64,000 nt of DNA, from assembly GCF_900142295.1 (NCBI RefSeq), contig NZ_FSRL01000001.1, positions 372,001 to 436,000 of the forward strand. Direction: 5' to 3'. The stretch's first letter is position 1. Every line of letters begins with the position of its first letter. The DNA is from Vannielia litorea (GTDB lineage Bacteria > Pseudomonadota > Alphaproteobacteria > Rhodobacterales > Rhodobacteraceae). Made by a program: the position numbers and the translations under genes. Positions 1 to 62,552 of this stretch are shown here, piece by piece. A model generated the notes under the pieces. It was not told the DNA's origin. It did no database searches and saw only the letters and a program-made list of their open reading frames with translations.

Positions 1-507
1 TCGATGACCCCGGCCCGCGAGGCGGTGCGGCGGCTGGCGGCGGAAGGGGCGCTGACCCTCTCCGCGTCGGGCCGTGTATCCACGCCGGTGCTGTCGAACG
101 ACCGGATCGAGGAACTGGCCGCGATTCGTGCCCTTCTGGAGCCGGAACTGGCCACCCGCGCCCTGCCGCGCGCCCACATGGCGCTGATCGAGCGGCTGGA
201 GGCAGTGAACGCGACCATCGCGGAGGTCACGGCGCGGGGCGATGCGGCGGGATACATCCGGGCGAACCTCGAATTTCACCGCACCCTCTACCTGCGGGCC
301 CAGGCCCCGGCGATGCTGGCGCTGGCCGAGACGGTCTGGCTCCAGCTCGGCCCCACCATGCGGCTGCTCTACGACAGGCTGCGCCGCAACGAGGTGCCGC
401 GCCATCATCGGCTGATCGTGGCGGCCCTCAAGGCTGGCGATGAGCCGGGCCTGCGGTTGGCCGTGCGCTCCGACGTGACCGGCGGTCTGAGGATGCTGGC
501 CACCTGA
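1..507 (+). CDS. GntR-family (FCD) transcriptional regulator, 5' partial
   Basis: The reading frame is open at the left edge and the first complete residues, SMTPAREAVRRLAAEGAL, are the recognition-helix end of a GntR winged helix, so the start lies outside the window. The remaining part is the all-helical FCD effector-binding domain, with the expected conserved acidic and His positions (for example NLEFHRTLY). FCD proteins of this kind usually sense small carboxylates or sugar acids and repress a neighbouring catabolic operon. The target cannot be inferred because the upstream side is missing. The next gene is convergent, 9 bases away. Confidence 0.85.
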   Translation, partial: SMTPAREAVRRLAAEGALTLSASGRVSTPVLSNDRIEELAAIRALLEPELATRALPRAHMALIERLEAVNATIAEVTARGDAAGYIRANLEFHRTLYLRAQAPAMLALAETVWLQLGPTMRLLYDRLRRNEVPRHHRLIVAALKAGDEPGLRLAVRSDVTGGLRMLAT

Positions 508-9519: not shown

Positions 9520-10028
9520 TCACTTGGGCGCGAAGGTAAATCGCACCTGGTTGTCGCTCTCGCTATGGCAGACAGGGTCCTGGCCGCCGGAGGTGATGCC
9601 CACCGCACGGCCCTCGCCCAGCGTCCAGCCGGTGCAGCCCTCGATCTCCAGCGGGGTCGCGTCGGCGCCCACCGTCTCGAGAAAGGCCGACAAGGTGACC
9701 GTGCCTATTGCCGTGCCCTGCGCCGTGTTGTCCACCGCGCAGATCTCGCCATCGGCATAGAGCGTCACGAAGAGCGGGCCCTCGGGCGGGGTCATCTCGA
9801 CCATGCCCATCTCGCTGTCGCCGAACACCTCCCAGCCGCGAGCCCTGAAGAACCCGGCGGTTGCCTCCGGGTCTCCGTTGCCCAGCAGGCAGGCCGAATA
9901 GGCACCGAGCTGCGCCTCGGGCGATGCCGGCGCGTTCAGCTGCGCCACCAGCGCCTCGAGAATCGCCACGTTCTGCGCAGCCGCCGGAGCAGCGGCCATG
10001 CAGGCCAGCAGAGGGAGCGCGAGACGCA

Positions 10029-10029
<1 letters not shown>
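9520..10029 (-). CDS. Predicted periplasmic protein between sucC and sucD
   Basis: 169 residues. A clear signal peptide ([19 protein letters not shown]) predicts export and cleavage after AAAQ. The mature part has four cysteines (in YSACLLG, GEICAVD, IEGCTG and DPVCHSE) that could form disulfides. I do not recognise the family. Its start codon overlaps the sucC stop by one base (TGATG), so it is translationally coupled to a cytoplasmic TCA enzyme although its product leaves the cytoplasm. sucD starts 71 bases further on. Confidence 0.75.
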
Positions 10030-11222
<1,193 letters not shown>

Positions 11223-11329
11223 GAAGCTGTTCCTCAAGCTGCGGTTCGCTCCCGTCCTTGGCACAGGCAATCGGCAAGGCAAACAAAAATCACCTTCAAA
11301 AGCGGGGGCTAACGGAGATTATTGCGATT

Positions 11330-11339
11330 TGTGATCACA
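11330..11339. promoter_or_regulatory. Operator-like palindrome, suc promoter site 1
   Basis: Perfect 10-bp palindrome TGTGATCACA, 107 bases before the sucC start. An identical copy lies exactly 21 bp away and the same pair occurs before sdhC. On the sucC strand a shared GTTAGC element follows 16 bases later. Confidence 0.75.
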
Positions 11340-11350
11340 GCCAAGAATTG

Positions 11351-11360
11351 TGTGATCACA
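11351..11360. promoter_or_regulatory. Operator-like palindrome, suc promoter site 2
   Basis: Second TGTGATCACA, in phase with site 1 at two DNA turns. It also lies 93 bases upstream of the divergent glycosyltransferase gene, so a bound factor could affect both directions. Confidence 0.75.
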
Positions 11361-11453
11361 AGTTAAGGCAGTGCTAACGCTATCATGGGAATCACCCCGC
11401 CCAGGCGCCGCCGGGGCTGGCCAGAGCCGCGCCGGAGAGGTATGCATTCGGCC

Positions 11454-12509
11454 ATGAACGAGACCTCAAGACAGGGCAAACCCCCGACCTGGGCCGTCGT
11501 CGCCACCGTGCGCGAACCGGCCGAACTTGTGCTGGCCTTCGTCGCCCACCACCTCGAACTCGGCGCCGCCAAGGTGCTTATCTACCTCGACGACCCCGAC
11601 GATCCGCTGCGCCCGATCCTGCGCGCCAAGTCGGGCGTCAACGTCGTCGCCTGCAACGAGGACTACTGGAACAAGGTCAACAAGGGCAGGGGGCGGCCGC
11701 CCAACCAGAACGCCCGGCAGGCGATCAACGCCACCACCGCCTACAAGAAGGTGAAGGCCGACTACCTGCTGCACCTCGATGCCGACGAGTTCCTGCACAT
11801 GGCCCGCCCCTTCGCAGAAGAGGTCGCCCGCCTCGAGGCCGATGACATCTGGCTGCGCGTGCCCGCCGTCGAGCGCTGCTGGCTCGCGGGCGACCGCTCC
11901 GAGCACATCTTTTCCGGCGTGTTCCGCCATCCGATCAAGCAGGCCCCGCTGGTCGCCAAGCGGATTTACGGCGAGGAGGTTGCGCCCTACCTCGCCAACG
12001 GACTCGCCGGCTCGTCGCACGGCAAGCCGCTGGTGCGCACGGGCCACAAGGTTCAGCTGCAGGTCCATGCCGCCAAGCTCCCCGGCAAGAACAGCGGATG
12101 GGCCCCGCACAAGAAGGCCACCGGCCTGCACGTGCTGCACTTCGACGGGCTGACACCGCTGCATTGGGCGGCAAAGACCCTGCGCTATGCCGAGCAGGGC
12201 GACGAGGTGATCGACCACCTCCTCCACGAGGAACGCGCCCTCCAGGTCCGCCACGTGCGCGACAACATCGGCTCCATGCCCGAGCTGCTGCGCTTCTTCC
12301 GCAAGATCACCGGCCTCACGCCCGAGCAGGCCCGTGCCCTCACCGAACACGGCCGCCTCAGCGCGATGAAGATCGACCCGGAAGCCGCCATGCGCCGCGC
12401 ATTCCCCGAGATCGAGGCCGACTTCTCCTTCCGCGCCTTCGACCTCAAGCTCGGCGCCGAGAACGCCAAGCGGCTGATGAAGAAGATCGCGGCCAGCCAG
12501 GCGGCCTGA
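11454..12509 (+). CDS. Glycosyltransferase family 2-type protein
   Basis: 351 residues. The N-terminus (TWAVVATVREPAELVLAFVAHHLELGA) and the metal/nucleotide-sugar motif HLDADEF fit the Glyco_tranf_2_4 branch of GT-A glycosyltransferases that modify surface polysaccharides. A basic C-terminal region (MKKIAASQ) ends the protein. The start could be 11442 or 11454; GGAGAGG lies just upstream of both. No signal peptide. It is divergent from sucC across the palindrome-bearing promoter region and convergent with the next gene, with only three bases between the stops. Acceptor and sugar are unknown. Confidence 0.8.
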   Translation: MNETSRQGKPPTWAVVATVREPAELVLAFVAHHLELGAAKVLIYLDDPDDPLRPILRAKSGVNVVACNEDYWNKVNKGRGRPPNQNARQAINATTAYKKVKADYLLHLDADEFLHMARPFAEEVARLEADDIWLRVPAVERCWLAGDRSEHIFSGVFRHPIKQAPLVAKRIYGEEVAPYLANGLAGSSHGKPLVRTGHKVQLQVHAAKLPGKNSGWAPHKKATGLHVLHFDGLTPLHWAAKTLRYAEQGDEVIDHLLHEERALQVRHVRDNIGSMPELLRFFRKITGLTPEQARALTEHGRLSAMKIDPEAAMRRAFPEIEADFSFRAFDLKLGAENAKRLMKKIAASQAA

Positions 12510-12512
12510 CGA

Positions 12513-13385
12513 TCAGTCGCGGCTAATCCACTGGTTCAGGCGTTTTGAGAGCCCACGGCTAAGCGCCCGGGCAAGTCCCGGCAGGCCGCGCCGTATCAGC
12601 GGCTTCACTTCCGCGCCGCTTCCGCCCAGGGTTCTGTCGGCGGCCAGAAGAGCTTCGAGCTGATGATACACGGGGGGACCCAAGATCGTCTTGATCCGAC
12701 TGAATTTCCGTTTCCGGTTTATAGTTTCTACGTGGCGATGCAGCCGCGGTAGATGCAGGATGCGAGGCGCGGCGAACTGTTCCGTATAAGCCTCGAGCAA
12801 CTCGATGGTCATGAAATTGTATTCATCCGGCAAGACCCACAACCGCAGATCGGACTCGTAAACGCAGGCACGAAAGACGGGTTGGTCGCGGTCCAGCCCA
12901 CTCGTCTGCAAAGTGGTGACCACCCTTTCTGCCAGTGCACTCACCCGGGGATCCTTGCAAAAGGCCAAGACACCGGTGTTCAGTTGCGGAAAGGCTGCCG
13001 GCAGCGGTTCTGCGAGGTTACTCACTGCCACCTTCGAATTACGTCGGGGCTCATGGGCAGCGGCAAGGTCGAAACGGTCAAGTACGCTGAAGACATCGTT
13101 CATCGGAGCGATGCAGAGCACATCCGCATCCAGCAGGATCGTCCTGTCGAACCGGCTGCGCTGCATCGCTTCGAATTTCGGGCGGAACCACGAGTTTTCC
13201 AGCGGAATAACCTGCGTGAAGATCTCTGCGGTGACCGGCTGGTCGCAGAACAGGTCTATTGGGTGGTCGGGGTGATGCAGCCGCAGGCTTTCGGCGGCGC
13301 GTAAGGCCAGCGGCACGTAGGCCGCACCGCTGACCGCAAAGACGAAGCCCTCTGAAGGCGGCCTCTTTGTATCTGTCGCATGCAT
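12513..13385 (-). CDS. GT-A fold glycosyltransferase-like protein (GT8-type)
   Basis: 290 residues. The N-terminal FAVSGAAYVPLALRAAESLRLHHP and the DxD motif in DRTILLDADVL resemble family 8 / nucleotide-diphospho-sugar transferases. LPQLNTGVLAF and the histidines of RILHLPRLHRH fit the later part of that fold. The ATG at 13385 follows the mdh stop by four bases; an upstream TTG overlapping mdh is less likely. Base composition is visibly less GC-rich than in the neighbours, with codons such as ATA, TTT and AAA more common, which suggests a different origin. Confidence 0.7.
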   Translation of the reverse strand: MHATDTKRPPSEGFVFAVSGAAYVPLALRAAESLRLHHPDHPIDLFCDQPVTAEIFTQVIPLENSWFRPKFEAMQRSRFDRTILLDADVLCIAPMNDVFSVLDRFDLAAAHEPRRNSKVAVSNLAEPLPAAFPQLNTGVLAFCKDPRVSALAERVVTTLQTSGLDRDQPVFRACVYESDLRLWVLPDEYNFMTIELLEAYTEQFAAPRILHLPRLHRHVETINRKRKFSRIKTILGPPVYHQLEALLAADRTLGGSGAEVKPLIRRGLPGLARALSRGLSKRLNQWISRD

Positions 13386-13389
13386 CAAG

Positions 13390-14376
<987 letters not shown>

Positions 14377-18692: not shown

Positions 18693-18702
18693 TGTGATCA
18701 CA
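18693..18702. promoter_or_regulatory. Operator-like palindrome, sdh promoter site 1
   Basis: TGTGATCACA, identical to the suc sites, 209 bases before sdhC. It shares the 21-bp pairing with the next site. Confidence 0.75.
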
Positions 18703-18713
18703 AGTCGAAAAAC

Positions 18714-18723
18714 TGTGATCACA
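18714..18723. promoter_or_regulatory. Operator-like palindrome, sdh promoter site 2
   Basis: Second TGTGATCACA, offset 21 bp from site 1. GTTAGC follows 18 bases downstream at 18742, as it does 16 bases after the suc pair. The rest of the 5' region to 18911 shows no convincing gene. Confidence 0.75.
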
Positions 18724-18911
18724 ACGCCGAAAAAACCTTCTGTTAGCGCCCGAACTGCGGCGCTTTATCATCGGTTTAGCCCGTGACTCGGCGGTTGAAA
18801 AATGCAAATGGAAAGACGCAGCACGCCTGCGCGGCCCGTCCGCGTGGCACGCCACCCAATGCGCCGCGCCCCGGCTCCGCCGCCCGGCCCGCGCCCTACA
18901 GGAGAGCGTTC

Positions 18912-19298
18912 ATGGCAGATATGAACCGGGACCGCCCGCTTTCGCCCTTCATGATCGGCCCGTATTACCGGCCCCAGATCACCTCGATCTCCTCGATCAT
19001 GGTGCGCATCACCGGAATCGTGTCCTTCGGCACCGCCTTCCTGGTGGTCTGCTGGCTGCTCGCGGCGGCCTTCTCCGAGCCCGCCTTCGACCGGATCAAC
19101 TGGCTGATGACCAGCTTCATCGGCGACATCATCATGGTCCTCGCCAGCTGGGCCATCTGGTATCACATGCTCGGTCGGCTTCGGCACGTGATCTGGGACT
19201 TCGGCTACTGCCTCGAGGTTCCGATCTCCGAGAAGATGGGCTGGGGCATGTTCATCGGCGCCACCGTGCTGGCGCTCTTCACGGCCATCGTGGTGTAA
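18912..19298 (+). CDS. sdhC: Succinate dehydrogenase cytochrome b556 subunit
   Basis: Membrane anchor that, with SdhD, holds heme b and the quinone site of complex II. 128 residues with three transmembrane helices. RPLSPFMIGPYYRPQITSISSIMVRITG is the N-terminal family signature; the heme-ligand region is WYHMLGRLRHVIWD in helix 2. GGAGAG precedes the ATG at 18912. An upstream in-frame extension from 18783 would read through the leader and is low-complexity, so it is not used. First gene of the sdh operon. Confidence 0.95.
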   Translation: MADMNRDRPLSPFMIGPYYRPQITSISSIMVRITGIVSFGTAFLVVCWLLAAAFSEPAFDRINWLMTSFIGDIIMVLASWAIWYHMLGRLRHVIWDFGYCLEVPISEKMGWGMFIGATVLALFTAIVV

Positions 19299-21598: not shown

Positions 21599-21638
21599 GA
21601 CCCGTGCCACGGCGCACAGCCATATCCCGGTGGGCGGC

Positions 21639-22394
21639 ATGATCACCGCCAACCTCGCCACCTACCCGCCGCGCGAGAGCAACCTCGCGCAGGTGGTGCA
21701 GGCCATCCTGCCGCAGGTCGACCGGCTGAACATCGTGCTCAACCAGTATGAGGCCCCTCTGCCTGCCTTCGAGGGCGAGGAGAAGATCGCCCAGATCATC
21801 CCCGACGAAGACCAGAAGGACGTTGGCAAGTTCTACCCCGATGTTTCGGGCGCCGATTGGGTCTTCATGATCGACGACGACATGATCTACCCTGTGGATT
21901 TCGTGGCAAAGTCCATCGCCTCGATGGAGGCGATCGGGCCGGGAAAGTTCCTCGGCGGCTACCACGGCTCGCTCTACTACGAGCCGCAGGTCTCCCTCTC
22001 GCCCGCGAAGCTGCTGAAGTACCTGCGCTACAAACCGGTGAACATCGCCGACTACCGCAAGCCCTTCCGCTTCTACGAACCGCTCGAAAAGCCCACGGTC
22101 GTGGATCAGATCGCCACCAACGCGGCGGTGATGCGCGGCGCGGATTTTCCGCCCCACGCCTTCATGGCCGGAAGCCAGAAGTTCGTCGACGTCCGCCTCG
22201 CCCGCTGGTGCTTCGAGAACTCCATCACCCCCGTCTGCCTGCCACGCCCCGCCGACTGGCTCGGCGAGGTGCGGTTCGACGAGACCATCTTCCGCGGCTT
22301 CACCCGCCAGAACCCGCCCCACGTCGCCGAGGAGATCTGGAGCTACGCGCTCAAGGTGCCCGGCCGGGGCGCCCCCGTCGGGGAGGGCCGCTGA
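21639..22394 (+). CDS. Glycosyltransferase-like protein inside the sdh operon
   Basis: About 251 residues. MITANLATYPPRE at the start and the acidic FMIDDDMIYP in the middle match GT-A glycosyltransferases, where the DDD/DxD cluster binds the metal and nucleotide sugar. The second half has VVDQIATNAAVMRGADFP and a Trp-rich end. The start is uncertain: a GTG at 21630 is also in frame and similarity to related proteins may begin slightly earlier. The stop overlaps the sulfotransferase start (TGATG). The pair probably modifies a surface or exported glycan; the reason for sitting between sdhA and sdhB is unknown. Confidence 0.7.
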   Translation: MITANLATYPPRESNLAQVVQAILPQVDRLNIVLNQYEAPLPAFEGEEKIAQIIPDEDQKDVGKFYPDVSGADWVFMIDDDMIYPVDFVAKSIASMEAIGPGKFLGGYHGSLYYEPQVSLSPAKLLKYLRYKPVNIADYRKPFRFYEPLEKPTVVDQIATNAAVMRGADFPPHAFMAGSQKFVDVRLARWCFENSITPVCLPRPADWLGEVRFDETIFRGFTRQNPPHVAEEIWSYALKVPGRGAPVGEGR

Positions 22395-23218
22395 TGCCCC
22401 GCCTGATGTGCTTCGCCACCCACCACAAGTCCGGCACCGTCTGGACCCGTCGCACGATCCAGGCCCTGGGTCATGCCTTCGGGCTCGACTGGCATGGCAT
22501 CTGGCGAGACGAGGCGATGCAGAAGCTGCCCGAGGAGGGCCGCGCCTTTCTGGTCAACTGGGCCGGGTGGTTTCCTGCCGACCTCTGGGCGCGCGACGAC
22601 GTGGCCTTTGTCCACATCATCCGCGATCCGCGCGATATCCTGCTTTCGGGCTGCGTCTACCACCATTTCGCCGGCCAGCAGGGCGAGAAGTGGCTGCACC
22701 TGCCCCGCACGGATCTGGGCGGAAAGTCCTACCAGGAGCACCTGAAGGCGCTCGAAGGCGACGAGGCCAAGCTGCTCTTCGAGATGGAGGGCAAGCACCG
22801 CGAGACGGTGGAGGAAATGCGCAACTGGCCCTGGGGCGACGCGCGCATCTTCGAGCTGCGCTACGAAGACCTGATGCAGGACCGGGATTGCGCGCTCTTC
22901 GGCCAGGCCCTCGCCCATCTCGGCCTCGAGGGCGAGGAGCTCGAAACCGGCAAGCGCCTGTTCTGGGAGCAATCCCTCTTCGGCGGCATGGCCAAGATGG
23001 ACGACCGCCCCCGCCACCTCATGGGCCACGTGTCGAGCGAAGGGGCGCTCAGGCGCTGGGAAACCGAGTTGCCGCGCGCCGTGGCCGAGGTTTACGCTGA
23101 CCGCCACGGGGCAGACCTCGTGGCGCTGGGCTACGAGACAGACGCCACCGGCTGGCTCGACAGGCTGCGAGAGCCCGAGCCGCGCAATGAACGTGTTTCG
23201 AGGGGGAATGGACGATGA
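22394..23218 (+). CDS. Sulfotransferase-domain protein
   Basis: 274 residues. HHKSGTVWTRR near the N-terminus matches the 5'-phosphosulfate loop that binds PAPS (Lys12), and HIIRDPRDILLSG matches the 3'-phosphate-binding motif. Both are diagnostic of the cytosolic-type sulfotransferase fold. The probable acceptor is a sugar, given the coupled glycosyltransferase-like gene upstream. ELRYEDLMQD later in the protein also fits the family. Its stop overlaps the next lipoprotein gene. Confidence 0.85.
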   Translation: MPRLMCFATHHKSGTVWTRRTIQALGHAFGLDWHGIWRDEAMQKLPEEGRAFLVNWAGWFPADLWARDDVAFVHIIRDPRDILLSGCVYHHFAGQQGEKWLHLPRTDLGGKSYQEHLKALEGDEAKLLFEMEGKHRETVEEMRNWPWGDARIFELRYEDLMQDRDCALFGQALAHLGLEGEELETGKRLFWEQSLFGGMAKMDDRPRHLMGHVSSEGALRRWETELPRAVAEVYADRHGADLVALGYETDATGWLDRLREPEPRNERVSRGNGR

Positions 23219-61797: not shown

Positions 61798-62552
61798 CGC
61801 TCCAGCCGCTGCCGGGCCACCGCCTCGTGAACCTCGGCCTTCCCCTGCTCGGCCAGCGCCCGCTCGACGAAGTCGAGATGTGCCTCCACCGCCCTCCGGG
61901 CCGCCGCGGCGTCGCGGGCCAGGATCGCTTCCGCGATGGTCCGGTGCTGCGCCAGCAGCCGCTCCCGCGTCGGCTGGTTCCGGAACATGATCTGACGGTT
62001 GTAGAAGACACCCTCGCGCAGCAGCCCGAACATCGCCCGCATCATGTGCAGGAGCACCACGTTGTGCGCCGCCTCCAGGATCGCCATGTGAAAGCCCGCG
62101 TCCAGCTCGGCCTCCTCCTCGGCCGTCGTCCGCCGCCCGTGGGCCGCCTCCATCTCCGCCAGCGCCCGGGCAATTCCCTCGTGGTCTCCCTCGGTGCCAT
62201 GCACCGCCGCCCGCTCCGCCGCCTGGCCCTCGAGGTCGCGGCGGAAGCCGATGTAATCCACCACCGCCTCCCGATGCCCGGCAAAGAGCCGCACCAGGGC
62301 TGGCGGAAAGACCGAGCGCAGCCCTTCCGACACGAACACCCCCGCGCCGGCCCGCGCCTCCAGCAGGCCCTTGTCCTGCAGCGCCCCCAGCGCTTCACGC
62401 AGCGAGGGGCGCGACACGCCCATGCGCTCGGCCAGGTCACGCTCCGCCGGCAGCCGCTCTCCGGGGCGCAGCACGCCCCGCAGGATCAGCAGCTCGATCT
62501 GCTCCACCACCGCATCGCTCAGACGCGCGGCATTGACAGGCTGGAACGGCAT
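61794..62552 (-). CDS. FadR/LldR-type GntR regulator
   Basis: 252 residues. The winged helix is RPGERLPAERDLAERMGVSRPSLREALGALQDKGLLEARAGAGVFV. The C-terminal FCD domain has a metal-site pattern (FRRDLEGQAAE, ELDAGFHMAILEAAHN and LLAQHRTIAEAI). Such proteins sense lactate, glycolate, pyruvate or similar acids. A nested palindrome 19 bases before the start codon is the probable operator. Convergent with the P1 peptidase gene. Confidence 0.92.
   Translation of the reverse strand: MPFQPVNAARLSDAVVEQIELLILRGVLRPGERLPAERDLAERMGVSRPSLREALGALQDKGLLEARAGAGVFVSEGLRSVFPPALVRLFAGHREAVVDYIGFRRDLEGQAAERAAVHGTEGDHEGIARALAEMEAAHGRRTTAEEEAELDAGFHMAILEAAHNVVLLHMMRAMFGLLREGVFYNRQIMFRNQPTRERLLAQHRTIAEAILARDAAAARRAVEAHLDFVERALAEQGKAEVHEAVARQRLER

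Follow-up and report, generated by a model that had tools for sequence, protein, structure and literature searches.

The suc and sdh operons of Vannielia litorea are each preceded by a pair of identical palindromes, and these pairs are most likely operators of AkgR, a known regulator with known targets found here in a new genome. We assign a probability of about 87% to the mechanism in which AkgR dimers on paired GTGATCAC sites jointly activate suc and sdh and a single site autoregulates akgR. We infer the identity of the regulator, the two dimers, their cooperativity and same-face contact, the class-I-like activation and the autorepression as follows. Each GTGATCAC palindrome would be the site for one AkgR dimer (GntR/FCD), and two dimers, two helical turns apart on the same face of the DNA and upstream of a weak core promoter, would jointly activate two operons in a class-I-like manner, suc for succinyl-CoA synthetase and 2-oxoglutarate dehydrogenase and sdh for succinate dehydrogenase, with the single site immediately ahead of the akgR start codon conferring negative autoregulation.

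Paired palindromes in the window, the host genome and close relatives

The window, i.e. the whole stretch of 64,000 nucleotides analysed, contains four exact copies of the 10-bp palindrome TGTGATCACA, all of them in the suc and sdh pairs (Table 1), with 0.01 copies expected and none of 100 shuffled windows reaching four. The spacing within the suc pair equals that within the sdh pair at 21 bp, the core GTGATCAC is exact at all four sites and each palindrome contains GATC. The distance from the start of the pair to the ATG amounts to 138 bp for sucC and 219 bp for sdhC. The initial annotation had described the twin palindromes at suc, had seen the same word and offset elsewhere in the window only before sdhC and had considered a chance recurrence very unlikely, all of which holds.

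Table 1. Position of operators, genes and accompanying elements in the window
Feature	Position	Strand	Remark
Candidate regulator, GntR + FCD, 3' part in window	1..507	+	whole gene L034:1417-2106, starts 183 bases before the window
sucC, first gene of downstream suc operon	10029..11222	-	ATG at 11222, MNIHEYQA
GTTAGC at suc	11308..11313	-	16 bases past the suc pair
suc operator, promoter-proximal palindrome TGTGATCACA	11330..11339	.	exact word count, conservation before sucC
suc operator, promoter-distal palindrome TGTGATCACA	11351..11360	.	21 bp from proximal copy
sdh operator, promoter-distal palindrome TGTGATCACA	18693..18702	.	conservation before sdhC
sdh operator, promoter-proximal palindrome TGTGATCACA	18714..18723	.	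21 bp from distal copy
TGTTAGCGCCCGAACT, fits the published RSP_1663/CceR pattern, contains GTTAGC	18741..18756	+	uncertain, separate element
sdhC, first gene of sdh operon	18912..19298	+	gene call

Throughout the host genome (4.10 Mb in three contigs) the word TGTGATCACA occurs in 11 exact copies and the reversed word in none. The seven copies outside the suc and sdh pairs are each the sole exact copy within their own 3-kb stretch and lie inside at least one stop-free frame of at least 100 codons, which is weak coding evidence in such DNA. Frequent occurrence of the unpaired word had been named at the outset as evidence that would overturn a regulatory reading; with 11 copies genome-wide the count came out against such a refutation. 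Equally, the proposed genome scan for 21-bp pairs, performed with up to three mismatches, recovers the suc and sdh sites only, and the reversed control gives no match.

Conservation was assessed by a SucC-based locus scan, from which the best 80 loci were taken (L042-L121), the closest SucC among them being that of Alloyangia mangrovi (L042, 91% identical). The 31 loci with a SucC identity of at least 82% (L042-L072) are considered close relatives. With spacings of 10-45 bp allowed, a pair is present before sucC in 30 of these 31 loci (28 at 21 bp, two at 20 bp), with Roseovarius sp. 217 (L048) as the sole exception without a pair at suc. sdhC could be located in 21 of the 31, and a pair precedes it in 20 (18 at 21 bp, two at 20 bp); L066 has a single site instead. 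The best pair in this free-spacing scan is always at 21 or 20 bp, and palindromes and spacing have been kept while the flanking DNA has strongly diverged. In the 49 more distant loci among the best 80 (L073-L121), no pair is found within 400 bp before sucC. Poor conservation in relatives, the other observation named at the outset as refuting, was likewise not borne out, either in the close relatives or in the family survey below.

Family-wide distribution and probable identity of the candidate regulator

A survey of the family Rhodobacteraceae comprising 198 genomes, one per genus, and allowing up to three mismatches detected the 21-bp pair in 168 genomes and the reversed control in two. From the class, 240 genomes were drawn, 237 of them outside the family; a pair match was found in seven of these 237, six with three mismatches, and the control in one of the 240. 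Among the matches listed, 59 stretches were chosen by hand (G055 stems from a search for 20-bp pairs) and 12 listed places were left out, six with three mismatches, three with two and three with none or one. The pair stands before sucC or sdhC in 57 of these 59 hand-chosen stretches and before sucA (L219) and fumC (L191) in the remaining two, both confirmed by family models. The fumC pair of G042 is the third of this genome (L191:794-822). The gene, with its start at 947, matched a class II fumarase model, so the regulon may extend to fumarase in some species.

When near-copies are removed and spacings of 20 and 21 bp only are scored, the spacing is 21 bp in 57 of the 60 promoters at suc and in 44 of the 47 at sdh, and 20 bp in the rest. 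G135 and G191 have triple arrays at suc in 21-bp steps, with an exact GTGATCAC core in the third palindrome, and less perfect third palindromes in 21-bp steps are seen in G197, G177 and G125. In 17 genomes with three or four matches whose places were listed in full, most of the extras have three mismatches or are part of triple arrays. The better extra near-pairs among them, in G045 (one mismatch) and G022:C77 (two mismatches), are not linked to a TCA gene; that of G045 lies inside the reading frame of a transaldolase-like protein (by eye) and is taken as chance. The seventh match outside the family, that of G344, is a 21-bp GTGATCAC pair (L282:992-1020) directly before the start of another GntR + FCD gene, whose product is 31% identical to the candidate regulator of the window, and this adjacency provides an independent link of operator type to protein type.

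The candidate regulator, a protein of 229 residues, is encoded beyond lpd at the far end of the suc cluster, and its ATG is preceded by a GTGATCAC site that begins 17 bp upstream (L034:1400-1407). A GntR-domain search of the genome gave 32 matches, 27 of them over the cut-off, and among 30 of the 32 GntR-domain stretches an exact GTGATCAC within 3 kb is seen at the candidate only. The window contains a second GntR-domain gene (62331-62519), with no GTGATCAC in its 3-kb stretch. A self-site like that of the candidate was looked for in the 300 bp ahead of the match in 31 regulator genes, the 30 with the best scores plus that of G051. It is present in 21 of them, G051 having no exact one, and in the genes read its end is about 7-12 bp from a possible start codon downstream. 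Judged from this placement in the sequence, akgR is probably subject to negative autoregulation.

A regulator match at E 1e-40 was obtained in 178 of the 198 family genomes, and a 20- or 21-bp pair is found in 173 of these 178 versus three of the 20 regulator-less genomes (Fisher 1.8e-17, phylogeny ignored). Among the five regulator-bearing genomes without the pair, three have a completeness of 71-76% (G122, G147 and G166), one shows sites at 13 and 22 bp with sucC matched only in part (G061), and in G054 the match to the regulator is weak; the regulator-less genomes with the pair (G019, G096, G114) are all drafts. Among the 20 genomes without the regulator, 18 have a readable sucC, with the pair kept in three and absent in 15, and apparent decayed sites are seen at the expected place in G157, G109 and G017. 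On a poorly resolved SucC tree, loss of the regulator corresponds to 11-12 changes. Supported branches give three independent pairs, of which about 1.8 agree, none disagree and 1.2 show no difference (p 0.5 or more), in a test of insufficient power whose regulator-positive rows are mostly genomes already known to carry the pair. In the 237 non-family genomes there is no regulator match above 42% identity at E 1e-35.

The link to AkgR leads through G051, which we take to be a Rhodobacter sphaeroides-like genome, its reaction-centre L subunit showing 100% identity to a sequence taken to be that of R. sphaeroides. The order in G051 is lpd, sucB, sucA, sucD, sucC, mdh, two genes, sdhC, D and A, a gap of ~620 bp, sdhB, a gap of ~760 bp and a GntR gene, which fits the numbering from RSP_0962 to RSP_0981, and the suc and sdh pairs are both present. 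The one regulator match of G051, 78% identical, is located ~760 bp past sdhB on the opposite strand, a place that fits RSP_0981, reportedly equated with AkgR by Imam and colleagues in 2015. By synteny in this genome, itself recognised by a protein sequence that we presumed to be that of R. sphaeroides, the GntR + FCD gene of the window is probably the akgR ortholog. McbR of E. coli (4p9f) is the nearest solved relative of the candidate regulator by sequence, with a 69-bit match only, and differs from AkgR in function.

Passages on the R. sphaeroides network predict that the GntR regulator RSP_0981 controls RSP_0967-6, RSP_0974-6 and RSP_0965-62, with sucCD, sdh and 2-oxoglutarate dehydrogenase as targets (PMC4344238), and a passage elsewhere attributes the motif GTGATCAC to AkgR (PMC6365646), whose role in the literature passages is that of an activator. 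AkgR, initially brought up as one candidate, is thus the best candidate by motif (PMC6365646), by targets (PMC4344238), both as given in these passages, and by co-occurrence of gene and pair. The AkgR regulon of Rhodobacter (Cereibacter) sphaeroides shares with the system described here the GntR family, the motif GTGATCAC, the sucCD, sdh and 2-oxoglutarate dehydrogenase targets and a GntR gene in the corresponding position within the cluster, and differs in belonging to another genus. PS417_07240-type GntR regulators of Pseudomonas simiae deoxyribonate clusters equally have GTGATCAC before their own gene, PS417_07240 being 32% identical to AkgR; they serve, however, another pathway, and the passage describes one palindrome, not a pair (PMC6365646). 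In the AkgR literature passages searched, a set that excludes the primary AkgR paper, no description was found of the paired 20/21-bp layout, triple arrays, phased A/T tracts or the self-site, and the layout at suc and sdh is more specific than these passages describe.

In the window, two glycosyltransferase-like genes (by eye) are placed between sucC and mdh (11385-13397), while mdh ends ~240 bp upstream of sucC in G051. The divergent glycosyltransferase-like gene at 11385 is unlikely as a conserved target, since G051 has mdh there with the pair kept. Between sdhA and sdhB, which are only ~620 bp apart in G051, the window has glycosyltransferase- and sulfotransferase-like genes (21630-23218; by eye), and an ORF of 169 aa with a signal-peptide-like start (by eye) is located between sucC and sucD (9520-10029).

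Operator anatomy, promoter features and the GTTAGC element

In the 60 suc and 47 sdh promoters the GTGATCAC core is exact in 96-100% of sites. The outer ends (T...A) are kept at 117 of 120 positions for suc and at 82 of 94 for sdh, the inner ends at 103 of 120 and 57 of 94, respectively, a difference with p 0.0017 (suc) and 5e-5 (sdh) among related sequences that are not independent. The outer flanks are T- and A-rich and the middle of the spacer is A/T-rich. Downstream of the pair, both promoter sets show A/T-rich runs approximately every 10 bp at offsets of 10-65 past the second palindrome, the two sets being in register (r 0.56) and the periodicity equalled in at most one of 2000 shuffles. 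Its amplitude is 3.4-3.9 times that of an upstream control and 1.7-2.6 times that found further downstream, both controls being weakly periodic too. No E. coli-type sigma-70 promoter was found near the suc or sdh pair, and together with the phased A/T runs this fits an activator-dependent promoter. By eye, a CGTGAC(A/T) block is common in sdh leaders, about 60-75 nt downstream of the second palindrome; an Rfam search of the window gave no match at gathering level.

From the original proposal of a cooperative TCA-cycle regulator, the regulator stands as the best reading, and geometry and base preferences suggest cooperativity between the dimers. A more elaborate model can be offered tentatively, as one that we would rather bet against than on: the 31-bp element might be a composite operator with its own symmetry, on which two AkgR dimers touch, with strong outer and relaxed inner half-sites, and phased A/T tracts might bend the promoter toward the complex. 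Number and place of sites would then set the outcome, one at the akgR start repressing and two or three upstream activating TCA operons.

On the operon strand GTTAGC follows the suc pair after 16 and the sdh pair after 18 bases, as had been noted initially; this placement is not conserved. GTTAGC is present in 12 of 60 related suc promoters versus 2.9 in shuffles and in 13 of 47 sdh promoters versus 3.1, but its positions are scattered, and it was rejected as a positioned part of the paired element. At sdh, GTTAGC makes up half of a sequence that fits the published CceR pattern, and we read it, with some uncertainty, as a separate CceR-like element. CceR (RSP_1663, LacI family) has the site [AGT]GTT N6-8 AAC[ACT] and sdh as a predicted target in R. 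sphaeroides (PMC4344238). It resembles the system at sdh in its predicted target and in a GTT...AAC pattern that fits the sdh element of the window, and differs in having a motif other than GTGATCAC and no fixed position relative to the pair.

That CceR, at sites of which GTTAGC is a half, acts alongside the pair at the suc and sdh promoters alike is conceivable at somewhat short of even odds. In its favour are the over-representation of GTTAGC at suc and sdh, the fit of the sdh site in the window to the published pattern and the inclusion, according to the passages, of sdh and 2-oxoglutarate dehydrogenase in the R. sphaeroides CceR regulon (PMC11323563; for sdh also PMC4344238). However, in Paracoccus denitrificans the same source passage places both outside the regulon (PMC11323563), the window has no full CceR-like site at suc, the positions of GTTAGC are scattered, and the published pattern shows no enrichment among suc promoters (2 of 60 versus 4.4 in shuffles) and is present in only 6 of 47 sdh promoters versus 3.1 (maximum 9).

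Alternative readings and significance

Another protein might bind the pair, another GntR, a CRP, a MarR or a LacI protein, and the number of GntR-domain matches over the cut-off leaves room for it; this is nevertheless improbable given that, in the stretches covered, the candidate alone has an exact GTGATCAC nearby and co-occurs with the pair. The half sites moreover abut (N0), unlike the CRP site TGTGA-N6-TCACA, so a CRP-type site was rejected. Far more remote still is a non-regulatory origin as a repeat, a mobile fragment or a methylation target. GATC in each palindrome and the G045 near-pair inside a reading frame are compatible with it, but all 59 stretches chosen by hand among the matches listed carry the pair before sucC, sdhC, sucA or fumC, and palindromes and spacing stay constant in diverged surroundings; this conservation makes such an origin very unlikely.

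With AkgR as the binding protein, the two dimers might still act singly, the second site only raising occupancy with no contact between dimers. As the regulator gene has only one palindrome as its self-site, one palindrome is presumably bindable, which lends this reading some credit. We regard it as unlikely, yet worth more than a change of regulator, in view of the spacing confined to 21 or 20 bp even in the free-spacing scan of the named relatives, the predominance of 21 bp in the suc and sdh promoters where these two values were scored, the kept outer and relaxed inner ends and the 21-bp step held by triple arrays. Joint activation by paired AkgR dimers remains the preferred mechanism.

The findings suggest that the link between AkgR and the TCA cycle, known from one laboratory species, is a family-wide and strongly conserved circuit, for which a precise operator of two GTGATCAC sites at 20-21 bp can be given. 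Predictions that follow concern the dependence on spacing, the outer versus the inner half-sites and autoregulation, and in some species they add fumC to the targets. Furthermore, the pair may mark the control regions of sdh and suc for annotation across Rhodobacteraceae.
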